Translations under genes and position numbers: made by a program
The notes under the pieces: generated by a model
Told to the model about the DNA's origin: nothing
What the model saw: the letters and a program-made list of their open reading frames with translations, nothing else
Database searches by the model: none
Part shown: in pieces, positions 13,890-20,403 of the stretch
How positions within the stretch are numbered: position 1 is the stretch's first letter
How the letters are laid out: every line of letters begins with the position of its first letter
Assembly (NCBI RefSeq): GCF_003611635.1
Contig: NZ_RAVZ01000071.1
Span: 1 to 32,347 of the forward strand
Direction: 5' to 3'
Length of the DNA stretch: 32,347 bases
DNA from: Corallococcus terminator
GTDB taxonomy: Bacteria > Myxococcota > Myxococcia > Myxococcales > Myxococcaceae

Positions 13890-15371
13890 GTGAACCCAGG
13901 AATGCCAAGCAGCGAACCGCCGCTCTTCAAAAGTGGCATCCCCAGCTTTGACACCCTCCTGGGAGGAGGCATCCCCACCCGACAGTCGGTGATCATCACC
14001 GGCACGCCAGGGTGCGGGAAGACGGTGCTGTGCAGCCAGGTGGCCTTCGAGGCCGCGGCGCGTGGCATCCCGGTGGTGATGGCCACCGTTACCTCGGAGC
14101 CCCATGACAAGCTGATGAGTTCGCTTTCCGGCTTCTCCTTCTTCAAGCCCGAGCTGCTGGGCGAGAAGCTCTTCGTCATCAGCGCCTACTCGGCCCTCAA
14201 GCGCGGACCCAAGGAAGCGCGCGACCTGCTGCTCCAGACGGTGCGCGAGCACAAGGCCGGCCTGCTGTTCATCGACGGGCTGCGCTCCATCCGGGACCTC
14301 TGGTCGGACGAGGCGCGGCTGCGCGAGTTCCTCTACGAGTTGGGCATCGGCCTTTCGGCCGTCAACTGCATTGGCCTGTTCACCACGGAGTACCCGCTGG
14401 ATCGGCTGATGGCGCTGCCGGAGGCCACCACGGTGGACGGCATCGTGGCCCTGTCCATCCAGCCCCAGGGAGCGCGGCGGGTGCGCCGCATCGAGTTGGT
14501 GAAGCTGCGCGGCCGGGCCCACCTCACGGGCGAGCACGTCATGACCATCAACCAGGGCGGCGTGGAGTTCATCCCGCGACTGGAGGCCACACCCCTGGAC
14601 TTCCATGACGCGCCGCCCACGCTGACGCGCAAGGGGTTCGGGCTTCCGGAGCTGGACGCGCTGATGTTCGGAGGGCTGCCCGAGCTCAGCACCACCATGC
14701 TCGCGGGGAGCATGGGCATTGGAAAGACCTTGCTGGCCACCCATTTCGTCGCGGATGGAGCGCGCAAGGGAGAGCACGGGCTCTTCATCTCCTTCTTTGA
14801 TTCGCCCGCCATGCTCACGGCGCGCGCGAAGCGCGTGGGCCTGGACGTGGACGCGCTGCTGCGCGACCGGACCCTGACCGTCCAGCACGAGCCCCCGGTG
14901 GAGCTGGAGGCGGACCTGTTCGTGAGGGATCTGCTGCGCACGGTGGACGCGCGCGGGGTGAAGCGGCTGGTCATCGACGGGCTCAGCGAGCTGGAGCTGT
15001 CCATCCTGGATCCGGCGCGGCGCCGGATGTTCCTCGCCTCGCTGGCGATGCGGCTGCGGATGCGCGGCGTCACCTCCATCTTCACCCGCGAGGTGCCCAA
15101 GGTCGTCGGCACGGAGCTGGACTTCAGCGACGCGCCGGTGGCCATCCTGGGAGAGAACCTGCTGCTCTTGCGCTACGTGGAGCTGCACGGGCAGATGCAC
15201 CGCATCCTGTCCGTGCTGAAGATGCGCGACAGCAAGTACGCCAGCGACCTGCGTGAGTTCCAGATCAACGACACCGGGGTGAAGGTGCTCGCGCCCCTGC
15301 GCTCCGCTGCGGGCCTGCTGACGGGTCAGGCACGGCCCATCGGCGCCACCGTCGGAGGTGGCTTGGAATGA
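13890..15371 (+). CDS. Double KaiC-like (RAD55-family) ATPase
   Basis: A 493-residue RecA-superfamily ATPase with two KaiC domains. Domain 1 (about 11-235) has Walker A GTPGCGKT at 38-45 and Walker B Asp129 (LLFIDG). Domain 2 (about 243-480) has Walker A GSMGIGKT at 273-280 and Walker B Asp363 (LVIDG). The C-terminal block LRYVELHGQMHRILSVLKMRDS matches the end of KaiC domain II. The catalytic Glu pair after each Walker A is altered: Ser69-Glu70 in domain 1 and Phe303-Asp304 in domain 2. By my alignment the KaiC phosphosites Ser431/Thr432 correspond to Ala418-Ile419. So it is not a circadian clock protein, but probably a nucleotide-dependent signalling or scaffold protein. It could start at GTG 13890 or ATG 13902; neither has a good ribosome-binding site. 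Its stop overlaps the next start by 4 bases (ATGA), so the two are translationally coupled. Confidence 0.9.
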   Translation: MNPGMPSSEPPLFKSGIPSFDTLLGGGIPTRQSVIITGTPGCGKTVLCSQVAFEAAARGIPVVMATVTSEPHDKLMSSLSGFSFFKPELLGEKLFVISAYSALKRGPKEARDLLLQTVREHKAGLLFIDGLRSIRDLWSDEARLREFLYELGIGLSAVNCIGLFTTEYPLDRLMALPEATTVDGIVALSIQPQGARRVRRIELVKLRGRAHLTGEHVMTINQGGVEFIPRLEATPLDFHDAPPTLTRKGFGLPELDALMFGGLPELSTTMLAGSMGIGKTLLATHFVADGARKGEHGLFISFFDSPAMLTARAKRVGLDVDALLRDRTLTVQHEPPVELEADLFVRDLLRTVDARGVKRLVIDGLSELELSILDPARRRMFLASLAMRLRMRGVTSIFTREVPKVVGTELDFSDAPVAILGENLLLLRYVELHGQMHRILSVLKMRDSKYASDLREFQINDTGVKVLAPLRSAAGLLTGQARPIGATVGGGLE

Positions 15372-16444
15372 GCCTTGTCCTCATCGCGGAGGATGAAGAA
15401 GCGCTGCTGGAGGTCTTCTCCGAAGTGGTGGAGGACCTGGGCCACCGCGTGGTGCGCGCGCACAACGGCGAGGAAGCCCTGATGCTCGCGCGGACAGAGC
15501 CGCCGGACCTGGTGGTCAGCGACCACATGATGCCCCGCCGCACCGGCATGCAGTTGCTCCACGCCATGCGCTCCGAACCCACCCTTTCGGAGGTGCCCTT
15601 CCTGCTGTTGAGCGCGGCCCGGCCCTCCGGGCGTGAAGCGGCCCAGACGTTCCTGGCGAAGCCGGTGGACCTGGCCACCTTCGAGCACGCGGTGAATTCA
15701 GCGCTCCAGCAGCACGCGACGGTCCGCACGGAGGCGGCCCAGGCCTCGCGCGAGTCGGCCAGCGCTGTGAGCCTGGCGCGCGAGGAGATGCTCAACTGGG
15801 TGGCGCACGAGCTGAAGACGCCCCTGAGCTCCGCGCGGCTCAACACGCAGATGCTGCTGCGCAAGGTGCAGAAGCGCGGCATCGAGGACGAGAGCCGCTC
15901 CGCCGAGGCCATCCTGCGGCAGTTGGACCGGATGAACGGGCTGGTGACCTCCATCCTGGACGCGTCCCGGCTGGCGGACGGAAAGCTGGAGTTGAAGCAG
16001 GTGCCCACGGACCTGGCGCCCTTCCTCCAGGAAGTGGTGCAGGACTGGCGCGAGATGCAGCCGGAGGTGGACTTCACGCTGCAGTTGGGAGAGCCGGTGG
16101 AGCTCCTGTCCCTGGACGCCGAGCGGGTGCGCCAGGTGCTCAACAACCTGCTGTCCAACGCGGTGAAGTACAGCGGGGAGTCGCGGCGCATCGAGGTGGG
16201 CGTGACGCTCAGCCCGGGACTCGTCCTCATCCACGTGCGCGACTGGGGCGTGGGCATCCCCGCCGCCTCCCTGCCCCACATCTTCGAGCGCTTCCAGCGC
16301 GCGGACTCCGACCGGGGTCGGGGACATGGGCTGGGGCTGTTCATCGCCGCCGCGCTCGCGAAGCTGCACGGCGGTTCGCTGTCCGCCCGCTCCACCCTGG
16401 GCGAAGGCTCCACCTTCATCCTGCGACTGCCCCGGCGGAACTGA
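15368..16444 (+). CDS. Hybrid REC-histidine kinase without sensor domain
   Basis: A 358-residue cytoplasmic signalling protein. An N-terminal receiver domain (1-118) has Asp9-Glu10, phosphoacceptor Asp52 (SDHMM) and the conserved Lys98 (AKPV). A HisKA dimerisation domain follows, with phospho-His147 in VAHELKTPLSS. The HATPase domain has the N box NNLLSNAVKYS, G1 DWGVGIP, F box FERF and G2 GHGLGL. There is no membrane segment and no PAS or GAF domain, so the input must come through the receiver or through the partner ATPase. The start overlaps the KaiC-like stop by 4 bases, giving near-equal synthesis of the two proteins. No separate response regulator is in the window. It ends 19 bases before a strong hairpin. 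Confidence 0.95.
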   Translation: MSLVLIAEDEEALLEVFSEVVEDLGHRVVRAHNGEEALMLARTEPPDLVVSDHMMPRRTGMQLLHAMRSEPTLSEVPFLLLSAARPSGREAAQTFLAKPVDLATFEHAVNSALQQHATVRTEAAQASRESASAVSLAREEMLNWVAHELKTPLSSARLNTQMLLRKVQKRGIEDESRSAEAILRQLDRMNGLVTSILDASRLADGKLELKQVPTDLAPFLQEVVQDWREMQPEVDFTLQLGEPVELLSLDAERVRQVLNNLLSNAVKYSGESRRIEVGVTLSPGLVLIHVRDWGVGIPAASLPHIFERFQRADSDRGRGHGLGLFIAAALAKLHGGSLSARSTLGEGSTFILRLPRRN

Positions 16445-16507: not shown

Positions 16508-17944
16508 CTACCGCGCTTCCATGCGGAACTGCTGGCAGTCGTTGTTGGACCAGGTCCACTGCTGCAGCAGCGTGCCGTCACCGCTGCCACCCTGGCAGCC
16601 CGTCACGTCCAGCACCTTGCCGCTGTGGCGCGCCTCCAGCCGGACGTAGCCGTTGCCCAGGTCCACCGGCTTGAACTGCTGGTTGCTTCCGTTGGAGTAC
16701 GTCCACTGCTGGAGCCCCGCGCCGTCCGTGCTGCTTGCGTCCTTCACGTCCAGCGCCTTGCCGCTGTGGCGCGACACGAAGCGGTAGTAGCCGCTGTCCG
16801 TCGCCTCCATGGACCACTGCTGGCTTGCGCCCGTGTGGCAGGCCCACTGGTGGATGATGGCGCCATCCGCCGTGCTGGGACCGGAGATGTCCACGCAGCG
16901 GCCGGAGGCCTTGTTGACCAGCCGGTACGCGCCCGTGCCGCCCGTGCCCTGCGCCACCGAATAGATGGCGTTGAGCAGCGACGTGCCGCCGGACGTGTCC
17001 TGGCTCAGCTCCCAGATCATCACGCCGCCGTTCTGCATGCCCAGCCGCGTCTTCGCCTGGATGGTGGAGATGCCGTTGTAATAGACGTCCCCGACGTTGT
17101 CCTTGTAGGGCGCCTGCGAGTCGCGCGCGACCAGCTCCGAGTAGCCCACGTAGCTGGACGGCGAGCGGCCGTAGAACGGCACGCCGAGCACCGCCTTGGA
17201 CGCCGGCAGCCCGCGCCCCTTCCAGTAGTTGAGCGACTGGACGGCCAGGTCATACGTCGAATGCGGCTGGCCGCCGTCGTAGGCCATGAGGTTGAGGAAG
17301 TCGACGTCGCTGAACACCGACGCCGGCACGCCGCCGCCCGTGTAGCCGTTGGCCACCACCGCCGCCGTCAGCAGCTTGCCCCGCGAGTGCATGGCGGTGC
17401 CCAGCTCCCGCATCAGCAGCGCGTAGTTGTTCCCCGACGTGCCGGGGTCCGGGTACTCCCAGTCGATGTCCACGCCGTCCAGACCCACGGCGTTGACGAA
17501 GTTCACCACCGAGTTCACGAACGCGGTGCGCGTGCCCGCGCTCCCGGCCATCTGTTCGAAGGCGCTGTCATTGCCGTCGTTCCAGCCGCCCACCGCGATG
17601 AGCACCTTCACGCCCTGCGCGTGCGCCTTCGTCACCAGCGAGCGCAGCCGCGTGTCCGTGGTGCTCACGCCCGTGAGACCACCCTGCGCCGTGGGCAGCG
17701 CGAACGCGTAGTTGATGTGGCTGAGCTTGCTGTACTGGAGCGTGTCCACGTTGCCCGCCCACGTCGGCAGGTAGCCCACCACGCGCGTCGCCAGCGCCGG
17801 CGACTCCACCGCGCCCAACGGTTCGTCGGACGTCGGAACGTCCCCGGGGCCCGAGCAGCCCCCCAGCGATGCGAGAAACACGGCGCCCAGCGCCAACGTC
17901 CGGAACGGCGTTGCGAAGAGAGACACGGAAGACTCCTGCGTCAT
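16508..17944 (-). CDS. Secreted GH18 chitinase lipoprotein with ricin B-type lectin domain
   Basis: A 478-residue predicted lipoprotein. The signal peptide (1-29) ends in a lipobox-like LGGC at Cys30. The GH18 catalytic domain (about 54-330) has VLIAVGGWNDG and the full DxxDxDxE motif at 156-163 (DGVDIDWE; acid Glu163), MAYDGG and GVPFYGR. A C-terminal ricin-type beta-trefoil (about 336-478) has three QxW/QxF repeats (HQWACH, QQWTYS, QQWTWS) for carbohydrate binding. It should hydrolyse chitin or related beta-1,4-GlcNAc polymers such as fungal or insect cell-wall material, fitting a predatory or saprophytic lifestyle. The start is uncertain: ATG 17944 gives a standard signal peptide but lies 1 base from a long hairpin and lacks a ribosome-binding site, while ATG 17977 has GGAAAG before it and adds 11 residues (MWFYGFSPSKP). 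It lies 71 bases after ybdD on the same strand. Confidence 0.92.
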   Translation of the reverse strand: MTQESSVSLFATPFRTLALGAVFLASLGGCSGPGDVPTSDEPLGAVESPALATRVVGYLPTWAGNVDTLQYSKLSHINYAFALPTAQGGLTGVSTTDTRLRSLVTKAHAQGVKVLIAVGGWNDGNDSAFEQMAGSAGTRTAFVNSVVNFVNAVGLDGVDIDWEYPDPGTSGNNYALLMRELGTAMHSRGKLLTAAVVANGYTGGGVPASVFSDVDFLNLMAYDGGQPHSTYDLAVQSLNYWKGRGLPASKAVLGVPFYGRSPSSYVGYSELVARDSQAPYKDNVGDVYYNGISTIQAKTRLGMQNGGVMIWELSQDTSGGTSLLNAIYSVAQGTGGTGAYRLVNKASGRCVDISGPSTADGAIIHQWACHTGASQQWSMEATDSGYYRFVSRHSGKALDVKDASSTDGAGLQQWTYSNGSNQQFKPVDLGNGYVRLEARHSGKVLDVTGCQGGSGDGTLLQQWTWSNNDCQQFRMEAR

Positions 17945-17945
17945 G

Positions 17946-17973
17946 GGTTTTGACGGGCTGAACCCGTAAAACC
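17946..17973 (-). promoter_or_regulatory. Hairpin abutting the chitinase start codon
   Basis: GGTTTT (17946-17951) pairs with AAAACC (17968-17973) and ACGGG (17953-17957) pairs with CCCGT (17963-17967). This gives 11 base pairs with one bulged base and a 5-base loop. In the minus-strand RNA it ends one base before the ATG at 17944, where a ribosome-binding site should be. It may mask initiation, act as an operator, or lie inside the coding region if translation begins at 17977. Confidence 0.45.
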
Positions 17974-18015
17974 ACATCAAGCAGTCTTTCCGGCAAAACT
18001 CAACGACTCATCGCT

Positions 18016-18222
18016 TCAGCAGCAGCGGCCCCCGCCGCCCCGGTAGCGGGCCTGGAGGCGGTCATTGAAAAACTCCGCATAGGTCATCACCGCGCGGTCC
18101 GGATGGTGACGGAGCATGTGGGCCACATAGGTGTCGTAGTCGGGCACGCCAATCATCTGGCGCGCGATGCGCACGGACTTGCGCCAGCCCTGCTGGAGCG
18201 TCTGGACGAAGTCGGGCCTCAC
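18016..18222 (-). CDS. ybdD: YbdD/YjiX family protein, CstA partner
   Basis: A 68-residue small soluble protein of the YbdD/YjiX (DUF466) family, which accompanies CstA-type transporters. The core ARQMIGVPDYDTYVAHM, the HPD motif and MTYAEFFNDR match E. coli YbdD closely, as does the C-terminal ARYRGGGGRCC with its paired cysteines. It is required for activity of some CstA/BtsT-type pyruvate transporters, so it probably works as an accessory subunit at the membrane. The start is the GTG at 18222, which overlaps the cstA stop by 4 bases (GTGA) and so implies translational coupling. A longer frame upstream is an out-of-frame reading of cstA. The tail CC is encoded by ordinary TGC/TGT codons, not selenocysteine. 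Confidence 0.85.
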   Translation of the reverse strand: MRPDFVQTLQQGWRKSVRIARQMIGVPDYDTYVAHMLRHHPDRAVMTYAEFFNDRLQARYRGGGGRCC

Positions 18223-20285
18223 CGTTGCACCGGGGCAGCGGCGGCCACGTAGGGCGTCTCCTGCGCGGTGGCCACCGTCGAGCGTCGGGCGGCGAGGATG
18301 GCGCGCACGCCGAAGAGGAGGGTGGCCACCACCACGGCCATGAAGAACGCGGTGAGGGCGGCGTCCAGGTAGTCGTTGAAGATGATGCGCTCCATCTCCT
18401 CCACGGACTTCGCGGGGGCGATGACGCGGCCTTCGGCCACCGCCTGGGAGAAGGCCTTCGCGTGGGCGACGAAGCTCACGCGCACGTCGCCGCCGAACAC
18501 CTTCTGGAAGCCGGCGGTGAGCGTGCACAGCACCAGCCACGCGGCGGGGATGCCGGGCACCCACGCGTAGCGTTCACGCTTCATCTTCACCAGCACCACG
18601 CACCCCAGCGTGAGCGCCACGGCGGCGAGCATCTGGTTGGCGATGCCGAACAAGGGCCACAGCGTGTTGATGCCGCCCAGCGGATCCACCACGCCCTGGT
18701 AGAGGAAGTAGCCCCAGGCGCCCACGCACAGCGCGGTGGCCAGCAGGTTCGCGCCCCAGGACTCCGTGCGCTTCAGGGGCGCGTACACGAGGCCCGCAAG
18801 CTCCTGAATCATGAAGCGGCCCACGCGGGTTCCGGCATCCACCGTGGTGAGGATGAAGAGCGCTTCGAAGAGGATGGCGTAGTGGTACCAGAAGGCCATC
18901 ATCCCCTGCCCGGACACGAGCCCGTGGAGGATCTGCGCCATGCCCACCGCCAGCGTCGGGGCACCGCCCGCACGGGACAGGATGGTCGTCTCGCCGATGT
19001 CGCGCGCCGTCTGCTCCAGGATGTCAGGGGTGATGACGAAGCCCCACTGGCTGATGGTCTGCGCCGCCTGCGTCGCGCTGGTGCCGATGAGCGCCGCGGG
19101 CGAGTTCATCGCGAAGTAGACGCCCGGGTCCAACACCGACGCGGCGATGAGCGCCATGATGGCCACGAAGGCCTCCATCAACATGGCGCCATAGCCCACG
19201 ATGCGCGCGTCGGCTTCGCTGGCCAGCATCTTGGGCGTGGTGCCCGACGCGATGAGCGAGTGCCACCCGGACACCGCGCCGCACGCGATGGTGATGAACA
19301 GGAACGGGAACAGGCTGCCGGAGAACACCGGGCCGGAGCCGTCCACGAACTTCGTCACGGCCGGCATGCGCAGGTCCGGTGCCGCCAGCGCGATGCCCAC
19401 CGCCAGCAGCAGCACGGTGCCAATCTTGAGGAAGGTGGACAGGTAGTCGCGCGGCGCGAGCAAGAGCCACACCGGCAGCACCGCCGCGCAGAAGCCGTAG
19501 CCGATGAGCAGCCACGCCAGCGCCTTGCTGTCGAAGGTGAACCAGGGGGCCCAGGTGGTGGACTCGGACACCTGGCCGCCCAGGTAGATGCTCAGCATCA
19601 GGAGCACGAAGCCGACGATGGAGACCTCCAGCACCTTGCCGGGGCGCACGTAGCGCAGGTACAGGCCCATCAGCACGGCGATGGGGATGGTCATGGCCAC
19701 CGTGAAGGTGCCCCAGGGGCTGTGCGTCAGCGCCTTGACGACCACCAGCGCCAGCACCGCGAGGATGATCATCATGATCATCAGCACGCCCACCATCGCC
19801 GTCACGCCGGCCGCCGGCCCCAGCTCCATGCGGACCATGTCGCCCAGCGACTTGCCGTCGCGGCGGATGGACAGGAAGAGCGTCACGAAGTCCTGCACCG
19901 CGCCCGCCACCACCACGCCCACGAGGATCCACAGCGTGCCGGGCAGGTAGCCCATCTGCGCGGCCAGCACCGGGCCCACCAGCGGCCCCGCGCCCGCGAT
20001 GGCGGCGAAGTGGTGGCCGAACACGACCCAGCGATCCGTGGGCACGTAGTCCAGGCCGTCGTTGCGGCGCTCGGCGGGGGTGGCGCGCGTGGGGTCCAGG
20101 CGCAGCGCTTTTTCGGCAATGAACCGGCCGTAGAAACGATATCCCAGCATGAACACCGCGACCGAGGCGACCACCAGCCAGATGGCGTTGATGGACTCCC
20201 CCCGGTGCAGCGCCACCACGCCCAGGCTGAACGCCCCGGCCAGGGCCACCAGCAGCCATCCCAACTTCCGAGCGACTCCACCCAT
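18219..20285 (-). CDS. cstA: Carbon starvation protein CstA-type transporter
   Basis: A 688-residue inner-membrane protein with about 16 hydrophobic helices. It belongs to the CstA/BtsT family of peptide and pyruvate transporters induced on carbon starvation. The signature N-terminal stretch is present: YRFYGRFIAEKALRLD, then DYVPTDRWVVFGHHFAAIAGAGPLVGP, then GYLPGTLWILVG and AGAVQDF. ACGAVSGWHSLIASGTTPKML is another family block. Length matches the longer E. coli-type members. The ATG at 20285 is preferred over an upstream in-frame codon because GGGGAG precedes it. It is followed by ybdD with a 4-base overlap. A role in recovering pyruvate or peptides during starvation fits a developing, predatory bacterium; substrate is inferred from the family. 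Confidence 0.95.
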   Translation of the reverse strand: MGGVARKLGWLLVALAGAFSLGVVALHRGESINAIWLVVASVAVFMLGYRFYGRFIAEKALRLDPTRATPAERRNDGLDYVPTDRWVVFGHHFAAIAGAGPLVGPVLAAQMGYLPGTLWILVGVVVAGAVQDFVTLFLSIRRDGKSLGDMVRMELGPAAGVTAMVGVLMIMMIILAVLALVVVKALTHSPWGTFTVAMTIPIAVLMGLYLRYVRPGKVLEVSIVGFVLLMLSIYLGGQVSESTTWAPWFTFDSKALAWLLIGYGFCAAVLPVWLLLAPRDYLSTFLKIGTVLLLAVGIALAAPDLRMPAVTKFVDGSGPVFSGSLFPFLFITIACGAVSGWHSLIASGTTPKMLASEADARIVGYGAMLMEAFVAIMALIAASVLDPGVYFAMNSPAALIGTSATQAAQTISQWGFVITPDILEQTARDIGETTILSRAGGAPTLAVGMAQILHGLVSGQGMMAFWYHYAILFEALFILTTVDAGTRVGRFMIQELAGLVYAPLKRTESWGANLLATALCVGAWGYFLYQGVVDPLGGINTLWPLFGIANQMLAAVALTLGCVVLVKMKRERYAWVPGIPAAWLVLCTLTAGFQKVFGGDVRVSFVAHAKAFSQAVAEGRVIAPAKSVEEMERIIFNDYLDAALTAFFMAVVVATLLFGVRAILAARRSTVATAQETPYVAAAAPVQR

Positions 20286-20403
20286 GAGGACTCCCCGTCG
20301 CGGGCCCCGCACCGACACCCGGCGCGGGGTTTATAGCGCACCCGTAGTCGCGGTCCGTTGCGTGCGCGATGGGATGTCGGATCCTGAAGGAAGTCCGAGC
20401 GCC

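Follow-up and report, generated by a model that had tools for sequence, protein, structure and literature searches.

Two overlapping genes of the myxobacterium Corallococcus terminator encode a two-domain KaiC-like ATPase and, directly after it, a histidine kinase that begins with a receiver (REC) domain. They lie in a stretch of 32,347 nucleotides (contig NZ_RAVZ01000071.1, positions 1 to 32,347), which we call the window. Our analysis suggests that the two products, an ATP-binding ring and a kinase, work as one signalling unit and not as a clock. The unit that evolution has kept together is these two genes, not a wider cluster, and the retention of the pair and of its overlap is far above what is expected by chance. 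The features discussed below are the following, in window coordinates:

13890..15371, plus strand: two-domain KaiC-like ATPase, 493 amino acids from a GTG start, defined by its open reading frame (ORF), Pfam matches and predicted fold
13929..14579, plus strand: KaiC domain 1, with K44-T45 (Walker A), T68-S69-E70, D129, E167 and the trans residues K205/R207
14640..15296, plus strand: KaiC domain 2, with K279-T280 (Walker A), F303-D304, D363, E401, A418-I419 and the trans residues K444/R446
15368..15371, plus strand: overlap between the ATPase stop and the kinase start, ATGA in 44/46 and GTGA in 2/46 orthologous loci
15368..16444, plus strand: REC-HisKA-HATPase_c protein, 358 amino acids, no recognised sensor domain, H147, D52 and K98 present
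15368..15712, plus strand: receiver domain of this kinase, which resembles the stand-alone receivers beside other ATPases of its clade; approximately unbiased (AU) tests leave its branching unfixed

The first-pass annotation of the window, made from the sequence alone, proposed a search for the same pair in other Myxococcota. A protein search identified close orthologues of the ATPase in 46 of the 145 genomes of the order, that of the window included (44 with at least 66% identity and 2 with 53%). Some match at an E-value of 1e-40 is present in 83 of these 145 genomes, mostly to paralogues. The same 46 orthologues were recovered at 1e-105 among 195 genomes of the phylum, and they all belong to one family and to 6 of the 90 genera. 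The two sets of genomes overlap, and each search scored part of each genome's candidates. The orthologue of the REC-histidine kinase is the next gene after the ATPase, with a four-base overlap, in all 46 orthologous loci, the window being one of them. The pair is thus evolutionarily stable, and the overlap of ATPase stop and kinase start described in the annotation is a property of the whole set of orthologues. At one locus (L039) the kinase fails to align over its first residues, and another (L020) is cut by a contig end within the kinase. We also found the pair in 8 of 8 wider loci, of which just two, from the same genus, are syntenic with the flanking genes of the window, one on both sides (L154) and one on the upstream side only (L155). 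Two more wider loci have weak matches (34% and 38% identity), to the Ser/Thr kinase of the window only. The nearest named relative among the matches listed is Corallococcus praedator (91%). A metagenome-derived deltaproteobacterial contig (L061, 51%) also carries the ATPase followed by a REC-histidine kinase. There, a stop codon splits the ATPase into two ORFs in the same frame (L061:1672-3135), which reflects either a sequencing error or a real split.

The Pfam matches of the first protein are two KaiC domains (PF06745) and weaker, overlapping P-loop families. Its ORF, annotated from 13890 onward, is real, and translation probably begins at the ATG at 13902 and not at the GTG at 13890, because a stop codon directly precedes the equivalent Met in the orthologues L044 and L051. 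The second protein has REC (Response_reg), HisKA and HATPase_c domains, plus an overlapping match to HATPase_c_2. The Pfam scan of the kinase recognised no sensor domain, which bears out the description of a kinase with a receiver and no sensor. The motifs of this protein are intact: D9, E10, D52, S82, K98, H147, N264 and D292 are conserved in 46/46 orthologues, and the G-box residues G319, G321 and G323 in 45/46 (the remaining row ends at a contig edge). Judging by these residues, it has the appearance of a functional kinase whose receiver can be phosphorylated.

We predicted the structure of the ATPase with AlphaFold2 (AF2) from an alignment of 28 rows and obtained a model with a mean predicted local distance difference test (pLDDT) of 87.4 and a predicted template modelling score (pTM) of 0.83. 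A prediction from the single sequence had a pLDDT of 36.9 and was not used. The model has two tandem RecA-like domains with P-loops, as KaiC does. It aligns with KaiC (8zn6_C) with a Z-score of 37.6 and a root-mean-square deviation of 3.0 Å over 465 residues, and the best Foldseek E-value is 4.3e-41. The structural alignment with KaiC that had been proposed as a check thus places the predicted ATPase in the KaiC fold. Residues 479-493 of the model have a pLDDT below 50. The active-site residues are conserved across the 28 rows, in which identity goes down to 28%. The model includes the strand-helix loops that bear the Glu residues in both domains; the loop of domain 1 (67-71) exceeds that of domain 2 (302-305) by one residue.

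According to the available text of PMC2777353, the first Glu of a Glu pair acts as the general base in each KaiC domain (E77/E318) and the second (E78/E319) is a Mg ligand. The same text states that K224/R226 and K457/R459 contact the ATP of the adjacent subunit, and that E183, a third nearby Glu in the CI domain, has an unclear role. The window ATPase has intact Walker A motifs in both domains (G38TPGCGKT45 and G273SMGIGKT280) and both Walker B Asp residues (D129 and D363), as had been annotated. The trans Lys/Arg residues of KaiC are matched by K205/R207 and K444/R446. The 46 orthologues show no variation at K44-T45, K279-T280, D129, K205/R207 and R446, whereas position 363 has Asp in 44 of them and Glu in 2, and position 444 has Lys in 44 and Asn in 2. 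The Glu-Glu pair is kept in neither domain. In domain 2, alignments to solved KaiC place F303-D304 on the pair; the residue at 304 is Asp in 32 of the 46 orthologues and Glu in the other 14. The register of domain 1 is uncertain: the pairwise alignment to solved KaiC (8zn6), ungapped there, matches the pair with T68-S69 and leaves E70 one position further on, whereas the family alignment puts S69-E70 on it, with one extra residue in the clade described below. The annotated Phe-Asp at 303-304 is therefore found again, as is, in the register of the family alignment, Ser-Glu at 69-70. Whatever the register, T68-S69-E70 is invariant in 46/46 orthologues, and each domain retains one acid, which in domain 2 is the second of the pair. 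The KaiC phosphosites Ser431/Thr432 fall on A418-I419 in both the pairwise and the family alignments, as the annotation had it; among the 46 orthologues, position 418 is Ser in 5 and position 419 is Ser or Thr in 9. With phosphosites and general-base Glu both absent, the protein is unlikely to have an autokinase activity like that of KaiC.

To place these features in the larger family, we analysed 46 rows in a tree and in motif counts: 7 of the 46 orthologues and 39 ORFs from 56 loci (4 from the genome of the window, 52 from the scan). Rows were kept when their KaiC span covered 400-560 residues, which excluded single-domain, triple-domain and split proteins (such as L061, L083 and C88 of the window genome). 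All counts inside and outside the resulting clade, and of its neighbouring genes, are a sample among the matches listed. In the tree, 37 of the 46 KaiC-like proteins group together, with 96 in the Shimodaira-Hasegawa-like approximate likelihood ratio test (SH-aLRT), a quick method. This clade holds the family of the window, three paralogues from its genome, and rows from Myxococcus xanthus, Pseudomonas, Burkholderiales, Alphaproteobacteria, Chloroflexota and others; the nine rows outside it include a long-branch outlier (L102). The clade has a motif in the catalytic loop of domain 1, [SAGT]-E plus one extra residue, which the window ATPase fits. The extra residue and the Glu equivalent to E70 are present in 37/37 clade rows, and 8/9 rows outside lack the extra residue. 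In domain 2, the first Glu of the pair is kept in 3/37 clade rows and the second position is acidic in 35/37. L081 (Massilia) and L082 (Duganella) have the only Lys at that second position (Glu-Lys) of the 37 rows; a hybrid histidine kinase lies downstream of the former, and no REC or histidine kinase was detected within the stretch examined of the latter.

The pattern of missing Glu residues is hence clade-wide and not particular to the window protein, and the term 'degenerate', which the annotation had applied to this ATPase, does not fit a protein in which E70 is found in every orthologue and clade row, position 304 is always Asp or Glu, and the trans residues are kept. Because the motif is invariant across orthologues and clade, we rejected a reading as a decayed copy. 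Two further acids may take over the catalytic role. E167 aligns with the KaiC CI Glu that we take as E183, by the numbering of PMC2777353 (available text). It is Glu in 46/46 orthologues, 17/37 clade rows and 5/9 rows outside. E401, its counterpart in domain 2, is Glu in 44/46 orthologues, 32/37 clade rows and 2/9 rows outside; the remaining two orthologues (G080 and G082) have Lys at 401, Ser or Ala at 303 and Glu at 304. Both acids are candidate replacement carboxylates.

The genes next to the ATPases of this clade point to the receiver as their usual companion. We counted neighbours for the 28 clade members left after removal of the 7 orthologue rows, L059 and L060. A same-strand REC lies within 400 bases of 24/28 of them versus 0/9 of the rows outside. 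A stand-alone receiver lies directly downstream in 19 of the 24, its REC match beginning between -15 and +29 bases relative to where the ATPase ORF ends; in the other 5 the REC is upstream. A looser rule, which accepts any REC-bearing ORF within 400 bases, hybrid histidine kinases included, gives 26/28 versus 2/9, and we prefer the strict count. A histidine kinase upstream, in the order kinase-KaiC-REC, is found at L062, L065, L067, L076, L078 and C31 of the window genome. The three paralogues of that genome, C31, C466 and C332, belong to the same clade, have its motif and adjoin a receiver. At C31 (L010:4543-7887), a REC-histidine kinase, a KaiC-like ATPase and a stand-alone REC stand in a row, the last two overlapping by 4 bases. 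At C88 (L009:6002-9672), the gene for a protein of 731 residues and three KaiC domains runs 4 bases into the start of that for a histidine kinase of 492 residues; the first ~250 residues of this kinase have no Pfam match at an E-value of 1e-5.

We then compared the receiver of the window kinase with these companions. We built a profile from 16 KaiC-linked receivers of other species and searched it against the window genome, where 150 of 300 candidates were scored. The three KaiC-linked stand-alone receivers of that genome rank 1, 2 and 4, the receiver of a paralogue of the window kinase (C265) ranks 5, and that of the window kinase itself ranks 12. The receiver tree has 68 rows, with as background the 40 best-ranking other receivers of the profile search, which are not a random set. 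All 19 KaiC-linked receivers, all 8 fused ones and C265 fall on one side together with 4 of the 40 background rows (support 87/94). Within this side, the fused receivers, C265 and the background row C810 join the KaiC-linked receiver of Hydrocarboniphaga (99/93), and that of a Chloroflexota comes next (85/82); the bootstrap of this tree was not fully settled. Four receivers of the window genome group with the KaiC-linked ones (L114, L123, L138 and L141, on C97, C161, C810 and C375), although the contigs that carry them gave no KaiC family match. The paralogue C265 (L111:5444-6451) has a receiver 55% identical to that of the window, no HisKA match, and VARTLQGPL in place of VAHELKTPL, which removes the phosphoacceptor His; it is likely a pseudokinase. 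A special kinship of the kinase half with the histidine kinase beside C31 is not supported, as the latter ranks 24th of the 90 listed matches in the genome, self included. Given the likeness of their receivers, the sensor-less REC-histidine kinase probably arose when the receiver that usually accompanies such ATPases was joined to a kinase, a likely fusion that the trees do not prove.

We consider the chance about even that the two genes encode one signalling complex, with the receiver as interface and the state of the ring coupled to the kinase. The ATPase would form an ATP-bound, KaiC-like double ring, a hexamer by its fold and trans residues, because the conservation of these residues suggests ATP binding at the subunit interfaces, as in KaiC. 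Such a ring would run no KaiC phosphorylation cycle, since it has neither phosphosites nor a general base in the KaiC place, and its genome has no KaiA or KaiB match. The receiver, seemingly the usual partner of the ring, would be a separate small protein in most relatives and joined here to a soluble histidine kinase. As the usual companion in the clade is a receiver, this domain is the best candidate for the part of the kinase that binds the ring, and we propose that it docks there. The nucleotide state of the ring (ATP or ADP, with slow turnover) would then be coupled to the phosphorylation state of receiver and kinase. The ring would be the likeliest source of input to the kinase, possibly with feedback from the phosphorylated receiver. 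We slightly prefer the ring as input over the ring as output, as no other sensor is recognised in the kinase.

Several observations weigh against this reading. By the strict rule, no REC was found at 4 of the 28 clade members listed (L063, L080, L081 and L082). Hybrid histidine kinases with a REC lie downstream of two of the nine listed rows outside the clade (L090 and L086_657), and REC-bearing proteins near KaiC are therefore not exclusive to it. When the window receiver is the query, its first match in its own genome after itself is C265 (55%), which sits on a contig without a KaiC family match, and the KaiC-linked receivers come 6, 7 and 23 of 128, self included. A topology in which the fused receivers lie outside the KaiC-linked ones is not rejected by the AU test (p 0.238), and one that sets KaiC-linked and fused receivers together apart from the background is 29.7 log units lower (p 0.075). 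The direction from ring to kinase, finally, would follow solely from the missing sensor.

Nearly as likely as the ring as input is the opposite direction, which we hold to be a serious contender of somewhat lower probability than the complex as a whole. The phosphorylated receiver, supplied by its own or another kinase, would dock on the ring and switch its ATPase or its binding to a downstream partner, the fused kinase replacing the separate one of the relatives. The receivers of these relatives stand alone beside the ATPase and have no output domain, which makes the ATPase their natural target; a histidine kinase is also upstream in several of them, and the presence of D52, K98 and H147 makes phosphotransfer within the REC-histidine kinase possible. 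Such a scheme leaves a sensor-less kinase without input. Compatible with either direction, and a doubtful though not negligible prospect, is an ATPase that serves as a scaffold, binding ATP and hydrolysing it very slowly or not at all, much as the annotation had suggested. It would explain why the place of the KaiC general base (E77/E318 in the available text of PMC2777353) is taken by Ser or Thr, depending on the alignment, in domain 1 and by Phe in domain 2. It accounts less well for the invariance of E70 in the clade rows listed, the acid at 304 in 46/46 orthologues, the kept trans residues, and the candidate catalytic carboxylates E167 (46/46) and E401 (44/46). With the retained acids, the trans residues and E167/E401 in view, hydrolysis may or may not be slow or absent.

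Co-transcription for convenience of two proteins that do not touch is improbable: the pair is present in 46/46 orthologous loci, its flanks are not syntenic in 6 wider loci of other genera, and ATPases and receivers are paired across the clade. Least probable of all is a timer of the KaiC type, either a circadian clock or an hourglass, with the REC-histidine kinase as a SasA-like output. The KaiC fold and the adjoining kinase speak for it, as do the rhythmic fruiting rings and several kaiC homologues reported for Myxococcus macrosporus in the available text of PMC11832031. Yet the phosphosites and a general base of the KaiC kind are absent, a REC takes the place in the kinase that a KaiB-like domain has in SasA, and no match for KaiB or KaiA (PF07689 or PF07688) was found at an E-value of 0.001 or less in the window genome, whose assembly has 863 contigs and is given as 99.99% complete. 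A Kai clock is thus very unlikely, and the missing KaiA/KaiB matches and phosphosites led us to discard it.

These results can be set against known systems. Like KaiC of Synechococcus elongatus and relatives, the ATPase has tandem RecA-like domains, P-loops, Walker B Asp residues, trans Lys/Arg residues and the corresponding predicted fold. Unlike them, it lacks the first Glu of each pair and the phosphosites and has an extra residue in the domain 1 loop; its score of 143.9 bits is far below the clock cut-off of TIGR02655 (NCBIfam, 546.25). The kinase differs from SasA in that its N-terminus is a Response_reg and not a KaiB-like domain, the family of which (PF07689) has no match in the genome. 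It resembles AsgA of Myxococcus xanthus, a soluble REC-histidine kinase that also has no sensor. We know of no pairing of AsgA with a KaiC-like ATPase.

Part of this organisation was already known. The available text of PMC3164672 reports that almost all bacterial kaiC genes outside cyanobacteria lie near signalling genes, and that kaiC and histidine kinase genes form operons and are cotranscribed in Ramlibacter. In its third kaiC context, a receiver gene frequently comes after the kaiC gene. KaiC-histidine kinase and KaiC-receiver operons, and the association with receivers itself, are therefore not new. As in the third context, a receiver stands beside the window ATPase; unlike those stand-alone receivers, it is joined to HisKA-HATPase_c. 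In the second context (the KaiC and kinase pair Rta_04330/Rta_04340), the N-terminus of the histidine kinase has weak similarity to a receiver (19% identity), SasA (16%) and KaiB (10%), as stated in the same available text. These pairs of KaiC and Nt_HK, which we set beside the window kinase by their description, are a possible distant parallel, and a receiver-like kinase that reads KaiC has been foreshadowed there. That text reads the N-terminus of Nt_HK as SasA-like, whereas the window has a REC that Pfam recognises, with all its catalytic residues, and almost all second-context KaiC keep phosphorylatable residues, unlike the window ATPase. Many myxobacterial KaiC homologues without phosphosites are described in the available text of PMC11832031, and archaeal work is also relevant (PMC5847659, available text). 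The available parts of PMC5520375 and PMC6378743 add nothing on the pair of ATPase and REC-histidine kinase. In the literature searched, subscription journals being mostly outside it, we found neither the clade motif nor the E401 substitution described, nor a KaiC-like ATPase whose gene overlaps that of a genuine REC-histidine kinase.

Beyond the pair, the window has at 16508-17980 (minus strand) a glycosidase of glycoside hydrolase family 18 (GH18) with ricin-type lectin repeats, which adjoins the pair and is convergent to it. Its neighbour at 18219-20318 (minus strand) is a CstA carbon starvation protein.

Homologues of KaiC occur widely in the absence of KaiA and KaiB, and little is known of what they do outside clocks. 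A stable pair of ATPase and REC-kinase, with the kinase motifs intact, provides a two-protein system in which to ask what the partner of a non-clock KaiC ring is. The clade motif, with its possibly relocated Glu, separates such rings from clock KaiC by sequence. More speculatively, and as an idea we consider unlikely in its full extent, KaiC-like rings of several phyla may have moved a catalytic carboxylate (in domain 2, from the place of KaiC E318 to that of E401) and acquired a dedicated receiver as standard partner. The Myxococcaceae would then have joined this receiver to a kinase whose sensor would be the nucleotide state of a separate ring.

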